Shown piece after piece: positions 19,700 through 27,727 of a stretch of DNA of 64,000 nucleotides; position 1 is the first letter of the stretch, and every line of letters begins with the position of its first letter. The position numbers and the translations under genes are program-made. The notes below the pieces were generated by a model. That model was not told where the DNA came from and ran no database searches. It saw nothing but the letters and a program-made list of their open reading frames with translations. This stretch comes from Psychrilyobacter piezotolerans. GTDB lineage: Bacteria; Fusobacteriota; Fusobacteriia; Fusobacteriales; Fusobacteriaceae. Location: positions 124,001 through 188,000 of the forward strand of contig NZ_QUAJ01000003.1 in the NCBI RefSeq assembly GCF_003391055.1. Direction: 5' to 3'.

Positions 19700-19798
19700 A
19701 AATTATTTCGATAACTGGCTGCCATAATAAGAATAGTTAAGGCCCTTTAGCTTTGCGTCACAGTGTTTCCATTGTTTTGCCTTTTCGGATTATCACGA
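19700..19798 (-). promoter_or_regulatory. c-di-GMP-I (GEMM) riboswitch
   Basis: The minus strand carries the conserved core of the class I c-di-GMP aptamer in order: AAAGGCAAAACAATGGAAAC (P2 with its GAAA tetraloop), TGACGCAAAGCTAAAGGGCC (tetraloop receptor and ligand-binding region), and ATGGCAGCCAGTTATCG (P3 with the GGNAGCC element). A Rho-independent terminator follows about 25 bases later, and the regulated gene encodes a GGDEF-EAL protein. Whether ligand turns the gene on or off depends on antiterminator pairing, which I did not resolve. Confidence 0.88.
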
Positions 19799-20397: not shown

Positions 20398-23300
20398 TTA
20401 ACAAATAGAAATACCTAAATTTTCTTTCATTTTGTTAAAATCAACTTTTCTGAATTCCGCCAGAGATTCTATCTGATTTTCATCAATTTTTCCCAGATCA
20501 AAATATTTGGCATTTTCGCTGAAAAACAGCAGACCGCAGACAGTGTGAACAGGTGTCATGGTATAAGTGGAACTAAGGGTTACTCCTAATTCCCAGATAT
20601 TCATAAGATCAAAGATCTCTTTTTTCATGGAGTGATCGGGTAAAATAGGATAACCTACTGCCGGTCTTATCTTAACCTGAATTACCTCACTTGCTTTAGT
20701 CTCTAAATAATATGCAGCAGCCTCTGTCAGTCTGTTTCCCAGTAATTTATACATGATATCCTCATATTCTGTTTTCCCGGATACAGTATCTATGGATACT
20801 GCAAAGGTACCTATATAATCTTCATTTTCTACAAAATCTGCCAGGGACAGTGAACTTTCCCATTGCTGGGTTCTCACCATGGGAAGTTCCAGACCATTAA
20901 TTTTTAAAATATCCATGGGTCTTTTCTCCACATTAAAAATTCCATACCTTGCAGATATTTTTAATTTTTTATCTTTCAATATTTCTAGATATTTTTCAGC
21001 CTCCCTTAAAATATCTTCCTCTTTAAAGGTGTCTTTTACCTTCCAATCGTGTAAAAATATATCCCAGTGGATATATTTTTCTATGTCTGCAACAGTGATT
21101 TTTATATCGAAAACTCCTGTTTTGGACGGTTTTATTACCTTGTTGGTTATTTTTTCCCTTTTTTTAAAACCTTCTTCTAAACTCAGATAAGACCTGTCTT
21201 CTTCAGTTTTTTTATAGGCCTTTCTCAATTTTTCATGTGAATTTAATACAGCCTCTTTATATTCCAGGTCTCCTCCCAGGATTTTATCCAGTACTATTAC
21301 GGTATTGGAAGCATCTGTAAGATGAAATACACGACCCCTATAATTGGGTTCTATTTTTATGGCAGTATGAAGGCTGGATGTAGCAGCTCCTCCAATGAAA
21401 AGGGGGATATTTATTCCTTCATTTGCCATCTCTTTAGCTACCCTTGCCATCTCATGGAGAGAAGGGGTGATGAGTCCGCTTAAGGCCAGGCCATGGACTT
21501 CTTCATTTTTTATTGCGGTTATTATCTTATCCATAGAAACCATGACTCCTAAATCGATGATCTTATACCCGTTGCATTCTAAAACTGTTTTTACTATATT
21601 TTTCCCGATATCATGGACATCGCCGTCTACAGTTGCCATAACAATAGTTCCCCTGTGCTCCATATTAATTTTTTCATTTTTAATCAGGGGGGTTAAATAA
21701 GTTACGGCCTCCTTCATGATCACAGCACTTTTAACTATCTGGGGCAGGAATAACTTTCCGCTATTGAAATGTTCTCCTACTCTTTCCATCCCTTCCATCA
21801 ATATATCCTGTATTATTGAGATGGGAGAATACTCCTTTAACAACAGGTCTATAAGGGTTGTTAAATTTAATTTATTCCCGTTAATCAGATTATCTGTAAT
21901 CTGAACCCTTGGATCGGATTCTTTTTCTGCTGTTTTAGGAGATATAATTTTTTCTATCTGTTCATCCAACAATGAATCTAAGACATCTTCTGTATTCATT
22001 ATTAAACTGCAGATCTTATCTTCCAGAGATTTTTTTATCTCAATTGTTTTTTCTGCAGGGTTCATTATCACCATATCCAGCCCATTTTCTCTGGCTAATC
22101 TCAAAAATACCTGATGAATAGCATGTCTTAACGGATTGTTTCCCCTGAAGGCAAATGAAACATTGCTGAGTCCCCCGCTTGTTTTGGCATGGGGCAGATT
22201 TTCTTTTATCCATTTTATGGAGTTTATATAATCTTTTGCATAATCCCTGTCTGTTTTTTCCCCCGTTCCGATAGTTAAAATATTAGTATCAAAGATAATA
22301 TCAGCAGGAGAAAAACCTATTCCCAGCAGCAGATCATAGGATCTTTTGGAAATTGCTATCTTTTTTGTGAAGGTATCTGCCTGACCGTGTTCATCAAAGG
22401 CCATGACTACCAGAGCTGCACCATATTTTTTTACTATTTCAGCTTTTCTAATAAACTCCTCTTCCCCGTCTTTGAGACTGAGTGAATTGACAATTCCCTT
22501 AGATGGAAGGTTTTTTAATCCTTCCTCTATTATCTCAAAATCAGAAGAGTCGATCATAATGGGAATGTTAGCAGTATCAGCAGAAGATAAAAGCAGTTTT
22601 ATATATTTTTTCATCTCTGTTTTGGAATCTATCAGTCCATCGTCTAGGTTGAGATCCAAGATATGAGCTCCGGCCTTGACCTGGGTTCTTGAAATTTCCA
22701 GAGCCTCATCATATTTTTTTTCTTTTATCAGTCTTGCAAACTTTCTGGATCCTGCTACATTATTTCTTTCTCCTACAATTAAAAATCCCTCTTCATCTAA
22801 GACTTCATTTCCCGATATATTAAATTCTAAAGATCTTTCCCTCAAAATTCGAGGTGTTTGATCTTTTACTGCCTCTGCTATGAGCTCTATATGTTTAGGA
22901 GTTGTACCGCAGCATCCTCCTATGATGTTTATTCCAGAATGTCTTATGAGGTCGTTTAAAATTTCTGCCGTTTCCTGAGGAGTCTCGGTGTACTCCCCTA
23001 CTTCGTTGGGTAATCCGGCATTGGGATATATGGAGATCGGTTTATGGGTAAATTTCCCCAGTCTATGAATCAGGGGCAGGAGCTCAGCAGCTCCAAATGA
23101 ACAATTCAAACCAAAGGACAGGATAGAGTCTCTGTCCAGGGAAATAACCAATGATTCCATGGTCTGCCCGGACAGGAGTCTCCCGAATCTATCCACTGTG
23201 GCTGAGATCATAATTGGAAGAGTTTTACCTTCCTCACAAAAGATCTCTTCTGCTCCGACAACCGCTGCCTTTGCATTTAAACCGTCAAATATAGTTTCAA

Positions 23301-23787
23301 TAAGGAGGAGATCTCCACCCCCGTGAAGGATTCCCCTGATTTGTTTCTTATAGGCTTCCTTTAATTCATCAAAATTGATCTCCGACGAATCGAGACCTAT
23401 ACTTTTATTTGAAGGGCCTACTGATCCTGCTATCCATACTTTTTTTCCGGTCTCTAAAGCCGCTGATTTTGCCAGCTTGGTTCCTTCCAAAGACACTTCA
23501 TATGCCAAATCTCCCAGAGAATAATCCCCCATAGATATGGTGTTGCCGTTAAAGGTATTGGTTTCTATGATATCTGCTCCGGCCTCTATATAACTATTGT
23601 AGATCTCCTTTACAATATCAGGTCTGGTCAGGTTGAGGAGTTCGTTAGCCCCCTTTAATTTAGAAGGGAAATTTTTGAACCTCTCCCCCCTGAAGTCCTC
23701 CTCGGTTAAGTTATAGTTTTGTATAGATGTTCCCATGGCACCGTCTAAAACCATTATTTTTTCTTTTAAAAGATCTTTTATGTCCAT
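20398..23787 (-). CDS. metH: Cobalamin-dependent methionine synthase
   Basis: 1129 residues, close to the size of full-length MetH. Domains: homocysteine-binding (about 1-310) with Zn ligands in LNCSFG and GGCCGTTP; pterin-binding (about 325-590); cobalamin cap and Rossmann domains (about 620-860) with VDGDVHDIGKNIV, whose His is the lower axial cobalt ligand; and the SAM-binding activation domain (about 870-1129), with RPAVGYPILPDH. It methylates homocysteine from 5-methyltetrahydrofolate in the cytoplasm and needs B12. It is the last gene of metY-metF-metA-metH, 27 bases after metA, and lies upstream of a terminator. Expression is presumably set by the leader at 26906-27147. Confidence 0.97.
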   Translation of the reverse strand: MDIKDLLKEKIMVLDGAMGTSIQNYNLTEEDFRGERFKNFPSKLKGANELLNLTRPDIVKEIYNSYIEAGADIIETNTFNGNTISMGDYSLGDLAYEVSLEGTKLAKSAALETGKKVWIAGSVGPSNKSIGLDSSEINFDELKEAYKKQIRGILHGGGDLLLIETIFDGLNAKAAVVGAEEIFCEEGKTLPIMISATVDRFGRLLSGQTMESLVISLDRDSILSFGLNCSFGAAELLPLIHRLGKFTHKPISIYPNAGLPNEVGEYTETPQETAEILNDLIRHSGINIIGGCCGTTPKHIELIAEAVKDQTPRILRERSLEFNISGNEVLDEEGFLIVGERNNVAGSRKFARLIKEKKYDEALEISRTQVKAGAHILDLNLDDGLIDSKTEMKKYIKLLLSSADTANIPIMIDSSDFEIIEEGLKNLPSKGIVNSLSLKDGEEEFIRKAEIVKKYGAALVVMAFDEHGQADTFTKKIAISKRSYDLLLGIGFSPADIIFDTNILTIGTGEKTDRDYAKDYINSIKWIKENLPHAKTSGGLSNVSFAFRGNNPLRHAIHQVFLRLARENGLDMVIMNPAEKTIEIKKSLEDKICSLIMNTEDVLDSLLDEQIEKIISPKTAEKESDPRVQITDNLINGNKLNLTTLIDLLLKEYSPISIIQDILMEGMERVGEHFNSGKLFLPQIVKSAVIMKEAVTYLTPLIKNEKINMEHRGTIVMATVDGDVHDIGKNIVKTVLECNGYKIIDLGVMVSMDKIITAIKNEEVHGLALSGLITPSLHEMARVAKEMANEGINIPLFIGGAATSSLHTAIKIEPNYRGRVFHLTDASNTVIVLDKILGGDLEYKEAVLNSHEKLRKAYKKTEEDRSYLSLEEGFKKREKITNKVIKPSKTGVFDIKITVADIEKYIHWDIFLHDWKVKDTFKEEDILREAEKYLEILKDKKLKISARYGIFNVEKRPMDILKINGLELPMVRTQQWESSLSLADFVENEDYIGTFAVSIDTVSGKTEYEDIMYKLLGNRLTEAAAYYLETKASEVIQVKIRPAVGYPILPDHSMKKEIFDLMNIWELGVTLSSTYTMTPVHTVCGLLFFSENAKYFDLGKIDENQIESLAEFRKVDFNKMKENLGISIC

Positions 23788-23814: not shown

Positions 23815-24645
23815 TTATACAGTTATCATCTTCAGCCAATTCTTATAAAAAATATCCCTGTGTTTATCCCAGGTAAACAATATCTCTTTATCCGGATCGT
23901 TATCCCTATAATAGTTTTCGGGAATATTTTTTTTATCTCTCCGGTATTCTTTATCCAGCCTGTTTATTTGATATTCACCATGTCCTGAGATATAGATATT
24001 TTTTAAATCTTTTGTAGCTGCCATATACACTCCGGCTCTTTTATTTTCGGCGATTATCATGAGTCCTGCTCCTAGGATATCTTCTTTTTTGTTGTAGGTG
24101 TTCCTTGAATGGGGGGCATGGAATTCATCCAACTGGATCAACTTATTTTTATTGACTCTATGGTTAAAAACCCCGAACATCTTTTCTTTTAGTGGATGTT
24201 TTAAAATTTTATAACGATGGTATAGTGCTCCCTGGCTGGCCCAGCAGATATAGATGCTGGGAATATTCAAATTAAAGGCAGGTTTTAATTCATTCCAATA
24301 TTTCACATCTTCAAATTCTATATTCTCTATGGGAGTACCTGTTATAATCAATCCCTGATAGTTCCTTTCCTCTAATTTACTCAGCGGGATATAGTTTTTT
24401 TCTAAATATTCCATGGAGGTGTTTTTTGAAATATGGTTATCCGGGTACAGAAATTCGATCTCTACCTCCAGATTATATCGGCCTAAGATATTAAAAAACT
24501 GGGATTCTACTTCATCTTTAAAGGGCATTAAGTTTATAATTCCTATTTTTATTTTTCCTGCAGTATCACCTTTATTTTTAAAGATGATGCCGCTGTCTTT
24601 AGATTCTGCTATCCCTCTCAAATTATTATTGCATAGAATAGACAT
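23815..24645 (-). CDS. metA: Homoserine O-acyltransferase, probably acetyl-CoA-specific
   Basis: 276 residues, somewhat shorter than the roughly 300 of most MetA. The catalytic Cys is in ICWASQGALYHRY (near 140), the glutamine-amidotransferase-like fold shows in NLMPFKDEVESQF, and the catalytic His in SGHGEYQ. In TGTPIENIEF a Glu sits where succinyl-transferring enzymes have Gly; in the family this marks acetyl-CoA use. That fits the O-acetylhomoserine sulfhydrylase encoded by metY in the same operon. It starts one base after the metF stop. The specificity call is inference from one residue plus context. Confidence 0.9.
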   Translation of the reverse strand: MSILCNNNLRGIAESKDSGIIFKNKGDTAGKIKIGIINLMPFKDEVESQFFNILGRYNLEVEIEFLYPDNHISKNTSMEYLEKNYIPLSKLEERNYQGLIITGTPIENIEFEDVKYWNELKPAFNLNIPSIYICWASQGALYHRYKILKHPLKEKMFGVFNHRVNKNKLIQLDEFHAPHSRNTYNKKEDILGAGLMIIAENKRAGVYMAATKDLKNIYISGHGEYQINRLDKEYRRDKKNIPENYYRDNDPDKEILFTWDKHRDIFYKNWLKMITV

Positions 24646-24646
24646 T

Positions 24647-25522
24647 TTACTCTGCCTCCCTAATTCCTTCCCGGATATATTTTATATTTTCCAAGATTCT
24701 TCTGGTTACATGGACCTTATTCATTGTATAGATATGGATCCCTTCTACCCCGGAAGCTATCAAATCAATGATCTGCTCTGTGGCATAGGTTATTCCAGCT
24801 TCTTCCAATGCTTTTGGGTTATCTTTGAATTTGTCCAATATGGCCTGGAATTTCCTGGGAATCCTTGCATTGCACAGTTTCCTTACTTTTTGAATCTGTT
24901 TATAATTTGTCACAGGTAATATCCCTGCAACTAAGGGTACAGTTAAATTTAATTTCTGGGTTTTTTCCCTGAATGCATAAAAATCTTCATTGTCAAAAAA
25001 TAATTGTGAGACTAAAAAATCAGTTCCGGATTCTACCTTTGTCTTCAGGTGAAAAAGATCCAGCAGGTCATTATTTTCAAAGTGCACCTCAGGATAAAAA
25101 GCACCGGCCACAGAAAAAAACGTTTCTTTTTTTATGTGTTTTACCAGATCACTGGCATAGGCAAAATGCGAATTATGGATCTCATCTCTGGGAATATCCC
25201 CTCTCAGGGCCAATATATTTTTGATTCCATTATTTTTTAACTGTTTCAGAGTATCATTTATAGATTCCTCGGTAGCCCCTATACAGGTCAGGTGAGCCAT
25301 GGTTTCTATCTTATTTATATTTTTGATTCTATTGGTGATCTCAACGGTTCTGCCCTGGGTGGTTCCTCCTGCTCCATATGTTACACTTATATAATCCGGC
25401 TTTAACTCTGCCAGTTCATCGATGGTTTTATATATTTTTTCTATGGGGAATTTATTGTTTGGCGGAAAAATCTCAAATGAGATTACGGTATCTTTATTTT
25501 TAAATATATCTTTTATTTTCAT
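24647..25522 (-). CDS. metF: 5,10-methylenetetrahydrofolate reductase
   Basis: 291 residues, the standard bacterial MetF length. The family pattern is seen as SFEIFPPN near the start, DYISVTYGAGGTT (about 40-52), HLTCIGA, ILALRGD, GADFLVSQLFFDN-type (here SGTDFLVSQLFFDNEDFY) and PLVAGILPVTN. The enzyme reduces methylene-THF to methyl-THF with FAD and NAD(P)H and so supplies the methyl donor of MetH, encoded two genes downstream. AGGAGAG precedes the ATG. It lies 63 bases after metY, and the next gene starts one base past its stop. Confidence 0.96.
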   Translation of the reverse strand: MKIKDIFKNKDTVISFEIFPPNNKFPIEKIYKTIDELAELKPDYISVTYGAGGTTQGRTVEITNRIKNINKIETMAHLTCIGATEESINDTLKQLKNNGIKNILALRGDIPRDEIHNSHFAYASDLVKHIKKETFFSVAGAFYPEVHFENNDLLDLFHLKTKVESGTDFLVSQLFFDNEDFYAFREKTQKLNLTVPLVAGILPVTNYKQIQKVRKLCNARIPRKFQAILDKFKDNPKALEEAGITYATEQIIDLIASGVEGIHIYTMNKVHVTRRILENIKYIREGIREAE

Positions 25523-25585: not shown

Positions 25586-26857
25586 TTATCTGGATCTTTT
25601 TATTGCATTTTCCAGATCCGCTATGAGATCATCTATATTTTCCAACCCTACTGAAATTCTTATCATATTTGGTTTTATTCCTGCTGCTTTTAACTGTTCG
25701 TCATTTAACTGGCCGTGAGTTGTACTTGCAGGATGGATGATCAAAGATTTGGCGTCGGCTACATTGGCCAGATGGGAAAATATCTCCAAATTTTCTATAA
25801 ATCTTTTTGCTCTTTCCTTCCCTCCGTGCAGTCCAAGGGTAAATATCGATCCTACACCTTTTTTATAATATTTATGGGCTAATTGTTTTTGTTCTTTTGT
25901 TGTAAACTCCGGATGAGTGATCCAATCTACCTCTGGATGGGAATTCAGATATTGGGCTACTTTTTTTGAATTTTCTACATGCCTTTCTACCCTGAGGGAA
26001 AGTGTTTCTATCCCCTGTAATATCAAGAAAGCATTAAAGGGCGAAAGAGCTGCTCCTGTATCCCGTAATAACCTTACTCTGGCTTTTACTATAAATGCCT
26101 GCTCCCCCAAATCTGAATAGACCAGATTGTTGTACCCGGAATCAGGGATATTAAATGATTCAAATTTATCATCTTTCCAATTAAAATTTCCCCCGTCTAC
26201 GATAACTCCCGCTATTGTTGTTCCATGACCGCCTAAAAATTTTGTAGCAGAATGAACTACTATATTAGCTCCATGTTCAATAGGCTTTATCAGATAGGGT
26301 GTCCCAAAGGTATTGTCCACAACCAGAGGGAGCCCATGTTTTTTAGCTACCTTTGATATGGCATCCAGATCGACTATTTGTCCTGTTGGGTTTTCCAATG
26401 TTTCTATGAAGATTACCTTTGATTTAGAAGTTATTGCGTCCTCCAGAGTCTTCAGATCAGAAGTTTCAAAAAATCTTGTTTTTATCCCAAAATCCTCTAT
26501 TGTATTGGATAAAAAATTATAGCTGCCCCCATAGATCCCCTTTGCTGAAACAATCTCATCTCCCGACCGGGCGATAGTCAGTAGGGCATAAGTTATAGCT
26601 GCTGATCCTGATGCTACTGCCAGCCCTCCTACACCACCTTCTAATGCCGCTATCCTGTCTTCCAATACTTCGGTTGTAGGATTTCCTATCCTTGTATAGA
26701 TATTCCCCTTCTCTTCTAGGTTAAATAACCTGGCCCCGTGATCTGTGTCTTTAAAAGTATAGGATGCAGTCTGGTAGATAGGTACAGCCCGGGCTCCTGT
26801 CAAGGTATCTTTTACCTGTCCTGCATGTAATTGCAATGTCTCAAATTTTAAATTCAT
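25586..26857 (-). CDS. metY: O-acetylhomoserine sulfhydrylase
   Basis: 423 residues, a cystathionine gamma-synthase family PLP enzyme. The PLP lysine is in VVHSATKFLGGHGT (near residue 205). YTRIGNPTTEVLEDRIAALE and IFIETLENPTGQ are typical, and the insertion IPDSGYNNLVYSDLGEQAF and overall length near 425 mark the MetY branch rather than MetB (about 380). It makes homocysteine from O-acetylhomoserine and sulfide. As first gene of the met operon it directly follows the leader with the Met-rich peptide and terminator. AGGAGG precedes the ATG. Confidence 0.95.
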   Translation of the reverse strand: MNLKFETLQLHAGQVKDTLTGARAVPIYQTASYTFKDTDHGARLFNLEEKGNIYTRIGNPTTEVLEDRIAALEGGVGGLAVASGSAAITYALLTIARSGDEIVSAKGIYGGSYNFLSNTIEDFGIKTRFFETSDLKTLEDAITSKSKVIFIETLENPTGQIVDLDAISKVAKKHGLPLVVDNTFGTPYLIKPIEHGANIVVHSATKFLGGHGTTIAGVIVDGGNFNWKDDKFESFNIPDSGYNNLVYSDLGEQAFIVKARVRLLRDTGAALSPFNAFLILQGIETLSLRVERHVENSKKVAQYLNSHPEVDWITHPEFTTKEQKQLAHKYYKKGVGSIFTLGLHGGKERAKRFIENLEIFSHLANVADAKSLIIHPASTTHGQLNDEQLKAAGIKPNMIRISVGLENIDDLIADLENAIKRSR

Positions 26858-26905: not shown

Positions 26906-26940
26906 AAATAAAAAAGCCTGTGGAGTTTCCCACAGGCTTT
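26906..26940 (-). terminator. Attenuator terminator of the met leader
   Basis: AAAGCCTGTGG and CCACAGGCTTT (minus strand) form a GC-rich stem with a small loop and a TTTTTTATTTT tail, about 50 bases before the metY start. The location between promoter and first gene marks it as regulatory. Confidence 0.85.
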
Positions 26941-27024
26941 CTGGTTAAAGATGCTTGTGAACAAACTCGTAGGTTACTACAAAACGAGTCTGTTCTTAAA
27001 TTTAAAAAATTTAAGTTACAAACT

Positions 27025-27078
27025 CTACCAAAGCATCATCATTAGCATATTTAATTGTCCGATTCTTGAATTAACCAT
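27025..27078 (-). CDS. Methionine leader peptide
   Basis: A 17-codon ORF, MVNSRIGQLNMLMMMLW, with four Met codons in the last seven (ATG CTA ATG ATG ATG) ahead of CTT TGG TAG. It starts about 70 bases after the predicted transcription start, with GTGAG upstream as a possible ribosome site. The Met codons lie in the strand that can pair with AAGCATC before the terminator. A peptide of this kind would sense charged tRNA-Met through ribosome pausing, as TrpL or LeuL do for their amino acids. No protein function beyond this is expected. It is too short for ordinary gene finders. Confidence 0.7.
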   Translation of the reverse strand: MVNSRIGQLNMLMMMLW

Positions 27079-27153
27079 CTTAATCAGCTCACTTATTTTT
27101 ATTTTTTTTCTTGGAATAAAACTTTTTTAGTACTAAAGTTTTAATTTTTAAAC

Positions 27154-27182
27154 ATTCTAGCATAAATTTTTTTTTATGTAAA
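27154..27182 (-). promoter_or_regulatory. Promoter of the met operon
   Basis: Minus strand: TTTACA, 17 bases, TAGAAT, both close to consensus and preceded by an A/T-rich tract. It is about 300 bases upstream of metY and points at the attenuator leader. Confidence 0.75.
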
Positions 27183-27409: not shown

Positions 27410-27438
27410 TTGACATAAAAAAATTAAACTGTTATTAT
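27410..27438 (+). promoter_or_regulatory. Promoter of the leu operon
   Basis: A consensus -35 TTGACA, a 17-base spacer and TATTAT lie 34 bases before the leader peptide ATG and about 415 bases before leuA. Confidence 0.85.
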
Positions 27439-27471
27439 CTTTCTTAATCACAAAACAAGGAGGAAAAAAAT

Positions 27472-27591
27472 ATGATTTTAACTAATATCTTATCTATAAA
27501 TATATTGTTACTGCTGCTGTTATTATTACCATTAGACTGCAAGCAATTGAATAGATTTAAAATGATATTGGGGAAATTATATACTTTTTGA
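27472..27591 (+). CDS. leuL: Leucine leader peptide of the leu operon
   Basis: A 39-codon ORF with a perfect AGGAGG site. After MILTNILSINI come eight Leu codons in a row (TTG TTA CTG CTG CTG TTA TTA TTA), then Pro and another Leu; Ile is also frequent near the start. The sequence after the stop contains CCTG...CAGG, a possible pause hairpin, and the first terminator. The CTGCTG repeat in the Leu codons is complementary to AGCAG in that hairpin and GCAGC in the terminator. This is the layout of ribosome-mediated attenuation by leucine, known from LeuL of enterobacteria. The peptide itself is probably degraded. Confidence 0.88.
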   Translation: MILTNILSINILLLLLLLLPLDCKQLNRFKMILGKLYTF

Positions 27592-27632
27592 ACATCCTGT
27601 TTTAGAAGAAGCAGGAAAAGTATAACTATGAT

Positions 27633-27662
27633 GGCAGCTGATATTATTGGCTGCTTTTTTTT
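27633..27662 (+). terminator. First leu attenuator terminator
   Basis: GGCAGC and GGCTGC form the base of a hairpin whose stem continues through wobble pairs, followed by eight Ts. It lies 42 bases past the leader peptide stop. Confidence 0.8.
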
Positions 27663-27697
27663 ATAAAAAATTATAAAAGAAAATATAAATTTTTTTA

Positions 27698-27727
27698 GGC
27701 AGCTATAATTATAGCTGCTTTTTTTAT
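27698..27727 (+). terminator. Second leu leader terminator
   Basis: GCAGCTATAATTATAGCTGC is a perfect palindrome followed by seven Ts, 35 bases after the first terminator. Its arms share GCAGC/GCTGC with that terminator, so both could answer to the same antiterminator strand. Confidence 0.8.

Follow-up and report, generated by a model that had tools for sequence, protein, structure and literature searches.

The metYFAH operon of the window (the whole stretch of DNA analysed, 64,000 nucleotides) is preceded by a leader that is very likely a ribosome-mediated transcription attenuator sensing charged elongator tRNA(Met), a reading inferred from sequence alone. Comparison of related leaders shows the features on which it rests: conservation of the Met codons, their 7–8 nt spacing from the next RNA element, compensatory changes in hairpin H2, family-specific complementarity between element 4 and the terminator, codon swaps that match the downstream pathway, and SAM-I riboswitches at the same genes in relatives. 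Translation of the ORF, ribosome stalling, dependence on aminoacyl-tRNA, the kinetics of the 2:3 and 4:terminator pairings, and the response to methionine are inferred. Attenuation at Met codons was the core claim of an earlier note on this locus, and that claim is supported by sequence comparison. The genes of the operon are as follows:

25586–26857, minus strand: metY, O-acetylhomoserine aminocarboxypropyltransferase, first gene of the operon (TIGR01326 above cut-off)
24647–25522, minus strand: metF, methylenetetrahydrofolate reductase (TIGR00676 above cut-off)
23815–24645, minus strand: metA-family homoserine O-acyltransferase (MetA families are the best matches, below their cut-offs)
20398–23787, minus strand: metH, cobalamin-dependent methionine synthase (TIGR02082 above cut-off)

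Upstream of metY, the leader has the following basic parts:

27154–27182, minus strand: sigma-70-like promoter, TTTACA-17-TAGAAT with TG, from a sequence scan
27025–27078, minus strand: leader ORF MVNSRIGQLNMLMMMLW, 17 codons, with Met-rich homologues in relatives
27034–27048, minus strand: regulatory codons ATG CTA ATG ATG ATG (Met at codons 11, 13, 14 and 15)
26911–26942, minus strand: intrinsic terminator of 14 pairs; the T-rich run after it extends to about 26906

Taken alone, the promoter-like site is at chance level (three sites found in the scan, 3.2 expected); relatives show the same -35/-10 hexamer pair ahead of their hom, metY and metN leaders. No further promoter-like site was found by the scan between the terminator and metY. 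The ORF is unique among the 1150 short ORFs of the window in having four ATG codons within seven, an arrangement expected 0.03 times per 64 kb of simulated sequence. Its ribosome-binding site is weak in the window copy (AAGTGAG), and most relatives have AGGAG or GAGG. A 14-pair terminator is expected 0.0 times in shuffles, and relatives likewise have a terminator between the leader ORF and the gene that follows. The leader as a whole folds with z = -4.9, better than 200 of 200 shuffled sequences. Two complementarities lie within it, one between GATGCTT (27037–27031) and AAGCATC (26956–26950) and the other between GAGTTT and the terminator loop.

No known RNA family accounts for the leader. An Rfam scan returned no family at its cut-off, and SAM and T-box families were not listed for the leader even at E <= 10; neither the SAM-I riboswitch (RF00162) nor the T-box (RF00230) matched. 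Sub-threshold Rfam matches at E up to 10 were treated as chance. The known Rfam amino-acid leader families remained below their gathering cut-offs, the best being Thr_leader with 22.4 of 55 bits, and at nine related loci none of these families exceeded its cut-off. The promoter, the 17-codon ORF with four Met codons, and the strong terminator described in the earlier note hold, as does its statement that the leader contains no SAM or T-box element, for which the covariance-family check in Rfam gave no match.

Other regulatory RNAs were observed nearby or in the same genome. A c-di-GMP-I riboswitch lies at 19707–19791 on the minus strand, upstream of two GGDEF/EAL-type genes. The genome has a single T-box-like element below the Rfam cut-off (G000:C28:3246-3421, 72.5 bits), located on a contig other than that of the leader; it is found in five genomes of the genus. 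In front of the leuA operon, positions 27410–27725 on the plus strand hold a leucine leader, MILTNILSINILLLLLLLLPLDCKQLNRFKMILGKLYTF, with a promoter and hairpins that resemble terminators. Runs of 8–12 consecutive Leu codons are conserved in this leader within the genus, and several genomes have a second copy. As to the suggestion that the next operon uses the same logic with leucine, the Leu leader is real (27472, plus strand), and its RNA scaffold is different.

Homologues of the methionine leader are found throughout much of the genus. A DNA search located another copy ahead of metN in the same genome, and matches in six of the eight genomes of the genus, amounting to 12 full copies; the two genomes without a match are incomplete. 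Copies before metY or hom encode the peptide MVNSRIGQLNMLMMMLW or MYNSKIEQLNILMLMMLW, and those before metN encode MKNLEFRQLNMMMMLWKGL and variants of it. At the site of the regulatory codons, three to four Met codons are kept in all 12 leaders. In two species only (L010 and L011), a Met leader precedes the gene for a divergent second, or accessory, methionyl-tRNA synthetase, which is frameshifted in G005. Control of a synthetase gene fits the sensing of tRNA charging better than the sensing of SAM. A partial leader ORF, MINSRIGQLNMLMMQN, was also observed at positions 1501–1554 of L017 (G005:C2:1158977-1159030); it lacks the stems and the terminator and is a decaying duplicate.

Between the regulatory codons and the terminator, the RNA is organized as a chain of mutually exclusive pairings among elements 2, 3 and 4 and the 5′ arm of the terminator:

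27019–27025, minus strand: element 2, GAGTTTG, overlapping the stop codon and 8 nt past the last Met codon
26995–27015, minus strand: hairpin H1 (CTTAAATTT/AAATTTAAG), which draws elements 2 and 3 together
26986–26992, minus strand: element 3, CAGACTC, whose partner is element 2 or element 4
26980–26985, minus strand: GTTTTG, a conserved NTTTT(G) immediately past element 3 in almost all members
26960–26994, minus strand: hairpin H2, the 3:4 pairing (AACAGACTCGT/ACGAGTTTGTT), with compensatory changes at 3 pairs in 12 leaders
26953–26968, minus strand: element 4, GAGTTTGTTCACAAGC, the antiterminator strand, pairing with the terminator 5′ arm and loop
26950–26956, minus strand: AAGCATC, the 3′ side of an outer helix with GATGCTT (27031–27037)

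Support for these pairings is uneven. Within the genus, 99.7% of H2 cells are paired, and 11 cells carry double changes, compared with 3.7 in shuffles. Covariation of H2 was counted on a model-guided alignment, which was used because MAFFT misplaces the 3′ arm of H2 between metY-type and metN-type copies; as the alignment was fitted to the structure, the count is biased toward it. The 2:3 pairing holds at five or more of its seven positions in all members. Double changes in it separate the Tyr type from the Met and His types (described below), and inside the Met/His set only one-sided changes occur. In copies of the metY and metN types, the outer helix forms between the sequence past the Met codons and a stretch located 3′ of element 4; it is interrupted in metN and metG copies.

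Pairing of element 4 with the terminator is modest in the window copy, where it reaches -11.5 kcal/mol and 46 of 500 shuffles do as well. The value is -12.3 kcal/mol in most metN copies and -16.1 kcal/mol in the metN copy of G003, in which GUCUGCC/GGUAGAC has become GUUUGCC/GGCAAAC. The metY leaders of another genus (g3) reach -14.6 kcal/mol, and the leaders of a further group (f4) reach -13.4 (Met), -11.2 (His) and -11.6 (Cys) kcal/mol. When the partners were re-dealt among eight groups, the native sum was attained in 0.12% of permutations (p = 0.0012). The groups are mutually related, and this p counts as support rather than as a strict probability. In the Tyr leaders, the pairing is no better than in shuffles.

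The distance from the last regulatory codon to element 2 is 7–8 nt in nearly every member, regardless of whether the codons are Met, His, Cys or Tyr, and element 2 itself has a GRGUUYG-like sequence. Relative to the start of element 2, the stop codon is found 2 nt upstream or 5, 7 or 17 nt downstream, and the reading frames differ. Because the spacing is fixed and the frame and stop position vary, the constraint acts on the RNA. The leaders of the second metN in g3 have an additional Met codon only 1 nt before element 2.

Both complementarities proposed in the earlier note exist, and the pairing scheme built on them has been revised. The GAGTTT past the stop codon had been matched to the terminator loop; as the sole antiterminator, this pairing was dropped after comparison. 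Instead, the GAGTTTG at the stop most likely pairs with CAGACTC (26992–26986), and the partner of the terminator's 5′ arm and loop is a second copy of GAGTTT, at 26968–26963 within element 4. The pairing of GATGCTT with AAGCATC, the latter just before the terminator, belongs to the outer helix and does not itself block the terminator.

Leaders of related build occur in other Fusobacteriota. A model (R1) of the metN and metG leaders gave weaker matches in g3, which are Met leaders as well. Those in front of metY, an aspartokinase gene or a solute-binding protein gene encode MFDKIIKTTMMNMMPLGVGTKN or a variant of it; those in front of a second metN encode MTTYNLISKTTMMNMMMPMGVGTKN or a variant. 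A core model (R2) was confined to the stretch from element 2 to element 3 plus the following NUUUU, with the regulatory codons excluded. Its training set comprised 12 sequences, including one His leader and several Met leaders; given this overlap, independence holds for the codons and not for all loci. Besides the Met leaders of g3, R2 recovered two kinds of f4 leader at E 3e-7 to 3e-5: one preceding hisZ and carrying HHH, the other preceding a sulfite-reductase-like gene and carrying CMC. A Met leader of f4 before metY (MINYKYINDNMMMYMRYRV), in a third genus, matched more weakly (E 0.06). With that exception, R2 matches at E of about 0.007 to 0.1 were judged to be chance, as most lay inside genes or lacked a fitting leader, and one in G089:C29 (E 7e-4) resembles no more than a terminator. 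R2 found nothing convincing in 78 metY neighbourhoods from other phyla. A Cys/Met leader, MENKINIINYNMCMCSRRV, was observed at L193 (G090:C1:538442-538487) before a sulfite or nitrite reductase-like gene.

The Tyr leader of g3 (MKQKIVFNTNAYYYYYLT, with YYYYY; L019-L025) precedes a gene for an AGCS-type transporter, for which tyrosine is a possible substrate on this evidence. Such leaders were found through DNA matches to the terminator only in other genera and, as MAFFT could not align them, were left out of R2. The Tyr leader shares the order of the elements and the conserved NUUUU(G) past element 3. Its membership in the scaffold is less certain, since its 4:terminator pairing does not exceed shuffles.

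Across these leaders, the codons track the downstream gene: Met before metY, the second metN and aspartokinase, His before hisZ, and Cys/Met before the sulfite-reductase-like gene. The earlier note had staked its claim on conservation of the Met codons alongside the stems. This conservation holds for the 12 leaders that the genus contributes and for independent ones in two further genera; the shift of codon identity to His, Cys or Tyr along with the downstream gene supports the core claim further.

Relatives commonly control the same genes with a SAM-I riboswitch. Sequences read by eye revealed a SAM-I consensus upstream of 23 of 25 metN loci in other genera; one of the two exceptions is cut by a contig end, and the other has no SAM-I consensus. 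SAM-I is present in 83 of 98 Fusobacteriota genomes, and in another Fusobacteriaceae MAG it lies upstream of metY in a metY-metF-hom operon. The genus therefore has a different device at genes that its relatives control by SAM-I. Each of its genomes except the least complete has kept one SAM-I, which in G000 precedes ECF transporter genes and then metK on the same strand, and in G004 lies directly before metK. A bolder reading is that a homologous Fusobacteriota scaffold (element 2-H1-element 3-NUUUUG-element 4-terminator) has been re-addressed among Met, His, Cys and perhaps Tyr by codon swap, and has displaced SAM-I at the methionine supply genes of a single genus, where SAM-I persists at the metK locus. 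The evidence tips toward this reading, if only by a small margin.

In the mechanism proposed, a ribosome would closely follow RNA polymerase as the short ORF is transcribed. With Met-tRNA plentiful, the ribosome would reach the stop codon and cover element 2 (GAGUUUG); elements 3 and 4 would then pair as H2, the terminator would form, and metYFAH would remain untranscribed. If Met-tRNA were short, the ribosome would stall on the run of AUG codons with its leading edge at about the start of element 2. Elements 2 and 3 would then pair, and element 4, set free, would bind the terminator at its 5′ arm and loop, permitting read-through. Judging from ribosome footprints in general, stalling with the last regulatory codon in the A site would put the leading edge near the start of element 2, and a ribosome at the stop codon would cover element 2 or its neighbourhood. 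When the ribosome was set at four positions, equilibrium folding favoured the terminator in all but one case, so the switch would have to be kinetic. The NUUUU(G) past the 2:3 hairpin could be a pause site for RNA polymerase that keeps ribosome and polymerase in step, a possibility that is purely inferential. The outer helix might provide basal termination when no ribosome is present. A difficulty is that methionine shortage should affect initiator tRNA as well, and this could empty the leader of ribosomes.

Other readings of the leader can be entertained. It could be a so far undescribed riboswitch whose ligand is SAM, methionine or something else and in which the Met-rich ORF is incidental. 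In favour of this are the three-way junction that H1, H2 and the outer helix can form and the near invariance of the sequence around H1 between paralogues. However, the element 2-H1-element 3 core also stands before hisZ and the sulfite-reductase-like gene with His or Cys codons, which unties it from any one ligand; in addition, the codon-to-element spacing is fixed and no Rfam riboswitch matches, leaving this reading very improbable. A regulatory nascent peptide, in which the chain itself (QLNMMMMLW or KTTMMNMM) would respond to methionine or SAM by arresting the ribosome, is also very improbable. QLN(M)nLW and KTTMMNMM are strongly conserved inside their groups, but the groups have only the Met run in common, this run gives way to His, Cys or Tyr as the downstream gene changes, and the C-terminal residues and stop position vary.

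A basal or inverse logic would have the outer helix and H2 bring about termination in the absence of a ribosome, with control exerted by how often the leader is translated, through initiator Met-tRNA, and not by stalling at internal Met codons. The outer helix does pair sequence past the Met codons with the segment 3′ of element 4 in the metY and metN types, and methionine is the initiating residue as well. Members with His, Cys or Tyr codons have the same layout, however, and cannot act via initiator tRNA, which makes this logic highly unlikely. In the last alternative, the locus would be a separate gene for a small protein or small RNA, complete with terminator and playing no part in metY control. 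In its favour, the leader has its own promoter and terminator and ends before metY. This alternative is extremely unlikely, as the paralogues always lie upstream of and co-oriented with metY, hom, metN, metG, hisZ or lysC, with codons that fit the gene, and the scan gave the gap before metY no promoter-like site of its own. Attenuation through charged elongator tRNA(Met) remains the preferred reading.

If this reading is true, methionine sensing by leader-peptide translation gains a well-supported example. There would also be a natural exchange between a SAM riboswitch and a sensor of Met tRNA charging, with sister genera using one or the other at the same genes. Within the genus the two would divide the work, SAM-I acting at metK and Met codons at synthesis, import and the accessory synthetase. 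A shared scaffold with interchangeable codons would offer a simple test of how attenuator specificity changes, and a puzzle would remain as to how a leader initiated with Met can sense Met shortage.

Leader-peptide attenuation itself is of a known kind. In the open-access literature searched (subscription journals were outside its scope), nothing relevant was found on fusobacterial leader peptides, and the only methionine leader was a weak proposal, metL of S. lividans (PMC8079986). Located upstream of metNIQ, metL is a proposed methionine leader peptide, MSTTSDRTPATEATTTPGARCMCRRMCAF, with only two internal Met; its authors report no typical Rho-independent terminator (PMC8079986), and the bearing sections of PMC8079986 hold no comparative support. 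SAM-I (S-box, RF00162) serves the same genes, metN and metY, in other Fusobacteriaceae, and senses SAM directly. The staphylococcal Met T-box couples transcription of the met operon to the charging of methionine tRNA (PMC3771891). Unlike the proposed attenuator, it binds uncharged initiator tRNA directly and without translation (PMC3771891); the window leader has no T-box, and a T-box survey recorded none in its two Fusobacteria/Thermotogae genomes (PMC2494555). Another counterpart is uORFC-8-2, a cysteine leader before cysS in Rhodobacterales and a comparatively defined ribosome-mediated attenuator (PMC8632094). Both leaders concern a sulfur amino acid, and both kinds are found before a tRNA synthetase gene; uORFC-8-2 differs in its phylum, its amino acid, and its translation-coupled control of cysS only. 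In enterobacteria, the trp, his, leu and thr attenuators consist of a short ORF rich in the regulated residue, mutually exclusive pairings, and an intrinsic terminator. The window leader follows the same plan of ORF, exclusive pairings and terminator, and differs from them in sensing methionine, in its extra hairpin H1, and in its 2:3 / 3:4 / 4:terminator chain.
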